The notes beneath the pieces were generated by a model. The model did not search any database. It saw nothing but the letters and a program-made list of their open reading frames with translations, and was not told where the DNA came from. Positions 34,334-37,538 of a stretch of DNA of 64,000 nt are shown in pieces. Each line of letters begins with the position of its first letter. The first letter of the stretch is position 1. The stretch covers positions 25,786 through 89,785 of the forward strand of contig CACDKD010000001.1 in assembly GCA_902553145.1 (NCBI GenBank), given 5' to 3'. A program made the position numbers and the translations under genes. Origin of the DNA: an uncultured Gammaproteobacteria bacterium. GTDB lineage: Bacteria; Pseudomonadota; Gammaproteobacteria; Steroidobacterales; UBA11654.

Positions 34334-35608
34334 TTACATAAATATAAGATCAGATATCCTATCATACTTCCCTGGCACTATCATCGGACACATTCCATTG
34401 ATTTTATCTTGTACCTTTATTAAAGATAGCCTGAGATTATCTATCTGTTCATTTTCTAATGAGCTGTCAGTATGAGGAATGTAATTTTCCCTAATCCCTA
34501 AAAGTTGATAGTAATGTTTTCTTGGTATTGAGACGTTATCACAGATATTTGCAAAACTTTTCCTTATAGATTCAGGATATACTTCCCACTCAATTGTTGA
34601 TGATAATTTGACTAGAGATTTTCTAAGATTTGTTATTGGTTTACCTGTTTTAGGATTATAAAAAACGTATTCGCTTTGATAGATACCTGTATTTGCATAT
34701 AAATATTCGTATGTGTGATTTAGAACCGATTGAATATCATTTGTTATCGGAACTACTTGAATAAATTTACTTCTTTTCTTTATGGTTATATGGCTATTAT
34801 CGGTAATTTGTTTCGCCTTAAGTTGTAAAATATCGTTCTTTTTTAAACCAGTAATAGTCATCATATAAATTACATTTCTTGTAATTATGTTGAGTCTATG
34901 TTCATCCATAGGATCACATAAGTTATATAAGTACTCTGGGTATTCACTAATGATATCTAATTGTTTTTTTGATGTTTTTTGGCCAGTAATAACCATCTTT
35001 CTTCTGAACTCATTTGCAGGATTATTTTGTAAATAATAAAGTCCTGAAGAGGATGCATGCTTAAAGATTTTTGAAAGTAACATCAATGCATTTTTTGATG
35101 CCGCTGGTGTATGACTATTATTTCTCCACCATTGTTCAATTTTTTCTAATGTTATGGATTCAATAGTGTCATTATGAAATGATTTGAGTTTATTAGAGAG
35201 TAAGTAATTAAGATTATGAGCAAAATGATTTGTTGAGTGTTCGCCGGTAGACTTTTTCTTTAACAGGTACTCATTGGCAATATCAATAAATTTCATTGAA
35301 GAGTTAAACTGTTCTCTCTTAGTTTTTTTGAGTAGATTTGGATCTATCCCCTTCTCCAATAGATCAATAGTTTGAAGATGTAAATCAATTGCGATAGGCA
35401 GGGATAATTTCTCTTTGGATCCATGCGTGATTGTTCTTGGATTACCTCCGCCTTTTATTCTTGCATAAGTAACAAAGCTTATTCTTCCAGATGGATTTAC
35501 TTTGATTCTGAGTCCCTTGTAGTCTGTCAATGTAATAAAGTACGCCTTGTCCTTTATAGGTAGTGATTCTAAATATTCATAAGAAACTTTATTACTATCT
35601 ATCCGCAT
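34334..35608 (-). CDS. Degenerate tyrosine recombinase/integrase (DUF4102-type arm domain)
   Basis: A 424-residue protein with an N-terminal arm-binding domain of the DUF4102 type (ITLTDYKGLRIKVNPSGR), a SAM-like core-binding domain, and a C-terminal catalytic fold. The catalytic residues are eroded: box I reads TGLKKNDIL (Lys256 for Arg), box II reads PESIRKSF (Glu346 for His, Arg349 kept), and LLGIREN has Ile for the third-box His, with no Tyr at the expected spacing. The frame is intact. Base composition is more AT-rich than its neighbours. No tRNA or second attachment site is nearby. It may be a relic of an integrated element or a domesticated DNA-binding protein. Confidence 0.75.
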   Translation of the reverse strand: MRIDSNKVSYEYLESLPIKDKAYFITLTDYKGLRIKVNPSGRISFVTYARIKGGGNPRTITHGSKEKLSLPIAIDLHLQTIDLLEKGIDPNLLKKTKREQFNSSMKFIDIANEYLLKKKSTGEHSTNHFAHNLNYLLSNKLKSFHNDTIESITLEKIEQWWRNNSHTPAASKNALMLLSKIFKHASSSGLYYLQNNPANEFRRKMVITGQKTSKKQLDIISEYPEYLYNLCDPMDEHRLNIITRNVIYMMTITGLKKNDILQLKAKQITDNSHITIKKRSKFIQVVPITNDIQSVLNHTYEYLYANTGIYQSEYVFYNPKTGKPITNLRKSLVKLSSTIEWEVYPESIRKSFANICDNVSIPRKHYYQLLGIRENYIPHTDSSLENEQIDNLRLSLIKVQDKINGMCPMIVPGKYDRISDLIFM

Positions 35609-35694: not shown

Positions 35695-36447
35695 CTATAA
35701 GAAATGGTCACCACCATTTGGACTAATAGTTTGGCCTACAAAATGATCGCCGTCTTCTGAGGCTAAGAATACATAAGCCGGAACTATCTCTCTAATATCA
35801 GCGATTGTGCCTTTTGGAATAGAAGCTTTGATTCCATCTAATATTTCTGTTGGAACCTCTGAGAGCATTCTCGTCATTGTTGCTCCTGGTGCGACACAAT
35901 TTGCTCTTATGTTTACTGTTCCTATCTCTAATGACAATGACCTTGTGAATGATATTATTGCTCCCTTAGCAGCAGTGTAGTGGGCAAATCCAGCGCTGCC
36001 TTTATAAGCTAGCTGTGATGCAGTATTAATTATTCTGCCGTATTTCTGTTCATACATAATCTTTAGACATTCTCTTGTGCAATAAAATGTCCCATTTAGA
36101 TGGACAGAAATTAACTCATTCCACATCTTATCTTTCATTTCATGTACAGGAGCACTGGTAGCTATGCCTGCATTATTAACAAGGATATCGATTCTTTTGT
36201 ATTGGTCTTTTATTGACTCAATCATACCTGATACTTGTTTTGAGTCCGATACATCAGCCTCAATAGTCATCGATTCATCTGAAAACTGAGAAACTTCGGT
36301 AAGGACCTTATTTGCGTTCTCTTCTTCTTGTTGATTTGGATAATTTATTATCACCTGAGCACCTTCTCTCGCAAATGCCATTGCTACACCTGCTCCGATA
36401 CCAGCAGAACTGCCTGTAATAAGTGCTACTTTGTTTTCTAATTTAAT
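35695..36447 (-). CDS. SDR family oxidoreductase, apparent ATT start
   Basis: A short-chain dehydrogenase/reductase. The ORF track begins at 36381, which would remove the NAD(P)-binding Rossmann motif. The same frame continues upstream without a stop through ALITGSSAGIGAGVA to an in-frame TAA at 36457-36459. Between that stop and the motif no ATG, GTG or TTG exists, but an ATT at 36447 has AAGGA 6 bp before it, giving a normal 250-residue SDR beginning (M)KLENKVALITG. The catalytic YxxxK is in HYTAAKGA and NNAG is in LVNNAGIA. The substrate is unknown; a start-codon mutation is the alternative explanation. Confidence 0.8.
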   Translation of the reverse strand: MKLENKVALITGSSAGIGAGVAMAFAREGAQVIINYPNQQEEENANKVLTEVSQFSDESMTIEADVSDSKQVSGMIESIKDQYKRIDILVNNAGIATSAPVHEMKDKMWNELISVHLNGTFYCTRECLKIMYEQKYGRIINTASQLAYKGSAGFAHYTAAKGAIISFTRSLSLEIGTVNIRANCVAPGATMTRMLSEVPTEILDGIKASIPKGTIADIREIVPAYVFLASEDGDHFVGQTISPNGGDHFL

Positions 36448-36512
36448 GGATAGTCCTTAATCTAATTTTATTTAATATAATTACAGATCATAATATCGAT
36501 TTAATCATTTTT

Positions 36513-37538
36513 ATGCCAAGAACGAAAACATTACCATCTGACTTCTATCATTCTTCATCAGTTTTTGATCAGGAGATAGAAAGTATTTTCAAAAATGAAT
36601 GGTTGTGGGTAGGGAGAACCGAGGAGTTGTCTTCAGTCGGTTCATATATAACAACAGACATTATCGGCTACCCAATTATTATACTCAGGGATAACTCTAA
36701 CGACCTTAAAGCCTTTCATAATGTCTGCAGACATAGGGCTGCAAAAGTTGTTTCTAGTAAAAGCGGTGTCTGCAAACATATGATATGCCCTTATCATGGC
36801 TGGAAATATGATCTCAATGGGAAGCTAATGGATACACCCAAATTCTATGCAAATGATGATTTTGATGAAGGCGGTCATTCTCTCTTTAAAATATCAATCG
36901 AGGAGCGTTTTGGTTTGGTTTTCATAAATCTAAAACTAGAATCTAAATCTCTTGATGAGTGGTTTGCAGGCTTCGGTAAAGTTGTTAGCAATTACTGTGA
37001 TAAGAATTTAGTTCACCACAATGAACTCAAATTTGACGTGCATGCTAACTGGAAAACATATGTAGATAACTATCAAGAGGGTTACCATATCCCGCTTGTT
37101 CATCCTCAACTCAATCGCGATGTAATTTGGCAAGACTATACGCTAGAAAATAAAGACGAATACAGCATCCATTCTGTTCCTGAAAGAGCAAACAGTGATC
37201 AACCAGGTAGTTTTGGTTGGCACTTTCCAAATTTCATATTCAATATTTATGGAAGGGGAATTGTATTCCAAAGAATTGAGCCATTGAAGCCAAAATGGTG
37301 CAGGGTAGTCTACAACCTCTTTCGCCCCAAGGATATAAGTGCAGAGGATTTCGAAAATAAAGAGGGAAAATATCAGCTAGAAGTAAGTCTGGAGGATCAG
37401 AAGCTAATACCAGAAATACAGCAAAATCTTCAAGCAGGCATATATAATGAAGGTCCGCTAAGTAAAAAATACGAAACAGGGGTCGCATATTTTCATGACC
37501 TCTATCTAACGAAACTTAATTTGGAGAATAACAAATGA
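36513..37538 (+). CDS. Rieske non-haem iron oxygenase, alpha subunit
   Basis: A 341-residue aromatic-ring-hydroxylating/demethylating oxygenase subunit. The Rieske [2Fe-2S] ligands are C72/H74 (NVCRHRAA) and C92/H95 (CPYHGWKYD). The mononuclear iron site is EGYHIPLVHP (H192, H197) with an acid further on. It is shorter than naphthalene-dioxygenase alpha subunits and nearer to the small demethylase or carnitine/choline-type oxygenases. No ferredoxin reductase or beta subunit is adjacent; the next gene overlaps by 4 bp and is an NmrA-like protein. O- or N-demethylation feeding formaldehyde to FrmA is an inference. Confidence 0.9.
   Translation: MPRTKTLPSDFYHSSSVFDQEIESIFKNEWLWVGRTEELSSVGSYITTDIIGYPIIILRDNSNDLKAFHNVCRHRAAKVVSSKSGVCKHMICPYHGWKYDLNGKLMDTPKFYANDDFDEGGHSLFKISIEERFGLVFINLKLESKSLDEWFAGFGKVVSNYCDKNLVHHNELKFDVHANWKTYVDNYQEGYHIPLVHPQLNRDVIWQDYTLENKDEYSIHSVPERANSDQPGSFGWHFPNFIFNIYGRGIVFQRIEPLKPKWCRVVYNLFRPKDISAEDFENKEGKYQLEVSLEDQKLIPEIQQNLQAGIYNEGPLSKKYETGVAYFHDLYLTKLNLENNK

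Follow-up and report, generated by a model that had tools for sequence, protein, structure and literature searches.

Naturally occurring genes that start with AUU are, to our knowledge, known from very few cases, and gene callers limited to ATG, GTG and TTG truncate such genes or lose them. The infC gene, which encodes IF3, is described as starting with AUU, AUC or AUA and as being autoregulated (Butler et al. 1986 and Sacerdot et al. 1996, as cited in PMC9410913 and PMC5472188). In E. coli pcnB, an AUU start is described as limiting output (Binns and Masters 2002, as cited in PMC13009471 and PMC9410913). Comparative and profiling data place cvfC1 (AUU) and ccpN (AUA) of S. aureus in the same class, with starts conserved in staphylococci; in poor medium, S. 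aureus reporters with AUU or AUA starts reached ~10% of the output from AUG (PMC13009471). Streptomyces sigR starts with GTC, and its repression by IF3 has been proven (PMC5472188).

Within the window, the 64,000-nucleotide stretch that we analysed from the genome of an uncultured marine bacterium (G000; 1.44 Mb, 85% complete), the AUU start of a gene for an SDR-family oxidoreductase joins the already known type represented by infC, pcnB, cvfC1 and sigR (PMC9410913, PMC13009471, PMC5472188). Like infC, the SDR gene has a conserved AUH codon (AUU, AUC or AUA) behind a Shine-Dalgarno sequence and would be expected to be sensitive to IF3; unlike infC, an autoregulatory translation factor gene, it encodes a metabolic enzyme for which no IF3 feedback is expected. 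It resembles pcnB in being a gene not for translation that has an AUU start, but pcnB encodes another protein and was measured in one species, whereas conservation of the SDR AUU is seen across a genus. A conserved AUU or AUA start is likewise common to cvfC1, ccpN and the SDR gene, although the staphylococcal genes have extended Shine-Dalgarno sequences and experimental proof, while the SDR gene has a moderate AAGGA and a start read from sequence comparison. The sigR gene also has a non-canonical start that is conserved at genus level and overlooked by gene callers, but its codon is GTC rather than AUU, its product is a regulator rather than an enzyme, its Shine-Dalgarno sequence is strong (AGGAGGTG), and the effect of IF3 on it is proven. 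The features of the SDR locus are as follows.

35695..36447, minus strand: coding sequence of the SDR-family oxidoreductase, 250 codons plus stop TAG, start ATT (open frame, Pfam, orthologues)
36445..36447, minus strand: AUU start codon (ATT in 7 of 10 genus genomes, ATG there in one more)
36454..36458, minus strand: Shine-Dalgarno sequence AAGGA, with a 6-nt spacer to the ATT
36457..36459, minus strand: in-frame upstream stop TAA, read from the sequence
36379..36381, minus strand: first canonical in-frame start (ATG, codon 23), not the main start
36394..36417, minus strand: TGSSAGIG nucleotide-binding motif, absent from any product begun at the first ATG
35965..36018, minus strand: catalytic Ser144, Tyr157 and Lys161
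36490..36519, minus strand: possible sigma-70 promoter TTGGCA-18-TATTAT, ~43 nt upstream (weak evidence)
36513..37538, plus strand: divergent gene for a Rieske / ring-hydroxylating oxygenase alpha subunit (synteny in 10 related loci)
34334..35608, minus strand: tyrosine-recombinase-like gene downstream of the SDR gene (PF00589, PF13356; beside the SDR gene in 10 of 10 related loci)

On the minus strand, the start region reads GAT TAA GGA CTA TCC ATT AAA TTA GAA AAC AAA GTA GCA CTT ATT ACA GGC AGT TCT GCT GGT ATC GGA. The frame (36456-35695) stays open for 253 codons after the TAA at 36459-36457, and no ATG, GTG or TTG occurs in it between that stop and the ATG of codon 23. The original prediction had claimed that canonical start codons are missing from the upstream stop to the Rossmann motif, that GSSAGIG lies in frame upstream of the first ATG, and that the ATT at 36447 is preceded by AAGGA at a spacing of 6. 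Our reading of the frame bears out the first two claims, as the ATG at 36381-36379 comes after TGSSAGIG, and both the coordinates and the spacing in the third are right. The leader is AU-rich, and we found no stable structure in it. Sigma-70-like sites in the upstream region were at chance level (2 found, 1.4 expected from shuffles).

We compared this start among G000 and nine other genomes of the genus, each of which has a full-length orthologue that is 68-96% identical. Codon 1 is ATT in seven of the ten (G000, G005, G008, G003, G002, G009 and G006) and ATG in G004, while G001 and G007 have an ATG one codon earlier. The ATT-bearing orthologues range down to 71% protein identity, come from independent assemblies, and include the single-cell-type assemblies AG-447-O13 and AG-435-A22; a scan of GTDB species recovered the genus loci with the same start codons and added one more record with ATT at this start, REDSEA-S12_B1. 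This conservation is the strongest test of whether the AUU is more than chance. As the same ATT is found in independent genomes of the genus, a shared base error is not credible. The original prediction had weighed a genuine AUU start against a start-codon mutation or base error and had proposed comparing this codon in orthologues; with ATT in seven of ten genus genomes that derive from independent projects, both MAG and single-cell, and ATG at the same codon in one of the ten, G004, that comparison sustains the former and rejects the latter. An error in sequencing or assembly, or a recent change of ATG to ATT that is silencing the gene, would agree with the ATG that outgroups have at or next to this codon, but we give this explanation almost no credence, given that the identical ATT recurs in the genomes of seven species, produced by different projects and including AG-447-O13 and AG-435-A22, and that the frame, catalytic residues and purifying pattern of the gene are intact. 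The ATG of G004 at codon 1 fits this codon being the start position.

Outside the genus, an AUH codon is not conserved at the SDR start position. In other families of the order, the orthologues have an ATG start, and 69 of 70 non-genus homologues have ATG, GTG or TTG at the position or a few codons before it, the exception (L086) having ATG one codon after it. On the SDR gene tree, whose deep branches have only moderate support, the distribution of ATT needs two changes, either two separate gains or a single gain that G004 has since reversed. Third codon positions among the ATT species are only ~45-50% identical, save in the close pairs G000/G005 and G009/G006, so the conservation of the ATT is not due to a lack of time. 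Codon identity alone is modest evidence, since one of the 17 other invariant isoleucine codons of the gene is equally ATT in all seven species.

To these observations we can add the pattern of substitution around the ATT in four near species. Codons 2-22 have mismatch rates of 0.135/0.048/0.548 at their first/second/third positions and codons 23-250 rates of 0.149/0.081/0.525, the same coding pattern in both, whereas the pattern is non-coding (0.117/0.225/0.225) over the 20 triplets that precede the ATT. The ATT itself is unchanged in all six near-species comparisons, in which 55% of the third positions in codons 2-22 are mismatched. This switch in substitution pattern at the ATT indicates that coding constraint starts directly after it, 22 codons ahead of the first canonical start. 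Translation from the ATG at 36381, yielding a shorter protein, would be the call of a standard gene finder, as this is the first canonical start; however, such a product would be without beta-1 and the TGxxxGIG nucleotide-binding loop, codons 2-22 are under the same codon-type constraint as the remainder of the gene, and outgroup orthologues encode this stretch behind an ATG, all of which leaves that start highly improbable.

The Shine-Dalgarno sequence is also retained, as TAAGGA in five near species and as AAGGAG/AGGAG in G006/G009. In G008, G003 and G002, it is overlapped by an in-frame ATG AAA xxA GAx TAA directly upstream of the SDR gene. Such an upstream mini-ORF of four codons (ATG AAA TTA GAT TAA) might lead into the SDR frame by stop readthrough or by termination and reinitiation, with the AUU as a mere reinitiation site. 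We regard this route as very unlikely, though slightly less so than the two alternatives above: G000 and G005 have ATA in place of the mini-ORF's ATG, and G009 and G006 lack the mini-ORF but still have the ATT, with no ATG, GTG or TTG back to a stop at codon -17. Even with reinitiation after the mini-ORF, the AUU would still serve as a start. In the three genomes that have it (L010, L011 and L012), the mini-ORF ends on the Shine-Dalgarno sequence and resembles the first codons of the SDR gene itself. Judged by these sequence comparisons, the AUU of the SDR gene is a genuine start that has been kept in evolution.

The encoded protein has the features of a classical SDR, with TGxxxGIG near the N-terminus (TGSSAGIG at residues 11-18). 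Profile searches gave matches to PF13561 (E 7e-58) and PF00106 (E 2e-56), both with scores far over cut-off, and the orthologues are full length and 53-96% identical. In an alignment of 13 orthologues, T11, G12, S14, G16, I17 and G18 are invariant, as are the intact NNAG motif (N91, N92, A93 and G94) and all three catalytic residues in the orthologue alignment. Among PDB sequences, those of FabG-type and hydroxyacyl-CoA reductases come closest. However, the score against the FabG 3-oxoacyl-ACP reductase equivalog TIGR01830 is 215.3 bits vs a cut-off of 297.75, and the protein is under the curated cut-off for every one of the 25 NCBIfam models listed; as no equivalog cut-off was reached, we name the gene only as an SDR oxidoreductase. 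Its product is very probably a full-length, functional SDR whose translation begins at the AUU at 36447-36445.

The SDR gene is divergent from the Rieske oxygenase gene, and the order MFS-NmrA-Rieske<>SDR-recombinase-ADH-UbiD, in which ADH is a class III alcohol dehydrogenase, holds in ten loci over whatever part of it each one covers. The tyrosine-recombinase-like gene directly 3' of the SDR gene is 43-95% identical among the ten genus loci. We considered an origin of this block in a mobile island, as prompted by the adjoining tyrosine recombinase, and discarded it because all ten genomes share the gene order of the block and the sole tRNA of the window is far away, at 17.5 kb. With its place beside the SDR gene in 10 of 10 loci, the recombinase-like gene is a vertically inherited, non-mobile recombinase homologue.

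For initiation at this codon, we propose that the AAGGA Shine-Dalgarno sequence and the unstructured, AU-rich leader would set the AUU in the P site, where ordinary fMet-tRNA would read it through a third-base mismatch and insert methionine. The N-terminus of the AUU-started SDR would then read IKLENKVALITG, with methionine in place of isoleucine. IF3 would disfavour this AUU, so that output of the SDR would be low and would vary with the level of IF3, by analogy with infC and with the S. aureus AUU/AUA reporters, and the AUU is probably a fixed low-expression setting for this gene. Altered initiation machinery, considered as another basis for the AUU start, was not supported. Read by eye, the initiator tRNA (L140:13740-13816, minus strand) shows a 1-72 mismatch and a GGG:CCC anticodon stem; IF3 retains a C-terminal FRGREM-type motif. 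As both look normal, the machinery gives no sign of a new decoding rule.

The SDR gene is a clean comparative case of an AUU start in a metabolic gene, and it led us to a stronger one in hisF, which is needed for histidine synthesis.

G000:C2:12715-13479, plus strand: hisF (L137/L178; orthologues L177-L186 and L215-L241), start ATT

All ten genus genomes have ATT as the start of hisF, and in the G000 gene the first canonical codon comes only after 184 codons of open frame. Among 23 readable genomes of the order outside the genus, the homologous position is ATT in 13, ATA in two, ATG in four and GTG in two, and is not a start codon in the remaining two; the ATT and ATA starts are spread over many families. 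A pattern scan of 369 genomes of the class, which catches only genes with this N-terminal spacing and therefore has small denominators, found an AUH-started hisF in six genomes, five of them in this order (all ATT) and the sixth a reduced genome of 0.4 Mb (ATA); it found ATG- or GTG-started hisF in 22 genomes, none of them in this order. The ATT of G000 hisF (C2:12715) precedes the end of the hisA match (12727), and this position inside the end of hisA makes translational coupling likely. A literature search did not find a link of hisF to an AUU start, although this does not prove that there is none. The AUU of hisF across the order is the least expected result of our analysis, and its pattern makes the reason for keeping a weak start codon testable.

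We also surveyed 1.15 Mb of G000 (982-1093 gene-like ORFs) for ORFs with an AUH codon at Shine-Dalgarno spacing but without a canonical start ahead of the conserved domain. The SDR gene is among a handful of G000 ORFs that have such a codon together with coding sequence that precedes the first canonical start. In the genus, infC starts with ATC in 10 of 10 genomes, and further genes with AUH codons in the start position are listed below.

G000:C1:103482-104030, plus strand: tsaC/yrdC-type gene (L123/L200), no canonical start before the AYPTDTVYG motif
G000:C1:225811-226560, minus strand: TauE/SafE-like permease (L129/L208), start candidate ATA, shared by 7 of 7 genomes of the genus
G000:C7:59553-60194, minus strand: ccmA-like ABC ATPase (L291-L299), first canonical codon in G000 after Walker A
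G000:C3:148122-149432, plus strand: lipoyl-domain E2 (aceF-like), ATC start candidate behind a Shine-Dalgarno sequence
G009:C1:64043-64768: lipoyl-domain E2 (aceF-like), ATT start candidate behind a Shine-Dalgarno sequence

The tsaC gene has an ATC start candidate in six of eight genus genomes. We treat the AUH starts of the TauE-like, tsaC and E2 genes as candidates, given their Shine-Dalgarno sequences, position and conservation. The start position of ccmA is an AUH codon in five of nine genomes (ATA in G000 and G005, ATT in G008, G003 and G002) and is TTG or unclear elsewhere; one of the five AUH-start genes also has an ATG four codons earlier. Such alternation between ATA and ATT at one position would fit a start codon that drifts among AUH codons. 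By implication, the N-termini of hisF, tsaC and infC in these genomes need correction.

It is tempting to view the AUH starts of infC, hisF, the SDR gene, tsaC, ccmA, the TauE-like permease and lipoyl-domain E2 as one maintained control layer, in which weak starts would let output jointly follow IF3 activity, with the hisF AUU reaching across much of the order, but we consider this broader proposal doubtful. Enrichment of AUH starts in this genome was not established, as the candidates in G000 (~7 of 1093 ORFs) and in an AT-rich alphaproteobacterial control contig (1-2 of 409) do not clearly differ, and these counts depend on inspection.

Many G009 genes (G009:C1, L271-L290) appear to be split into short frames relative to G000, which suggests indel errors in that assembly; the ATT of G009 at the SDR start is backed by its close relative G006. 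In the control contig (G423:C14 391415-391966 and 139584-140078; L251-L270), a second ORF lacks any canonical start ahead of what looks like its coding region and is an ATA candidate, and infC itself apparently starts with ATA.
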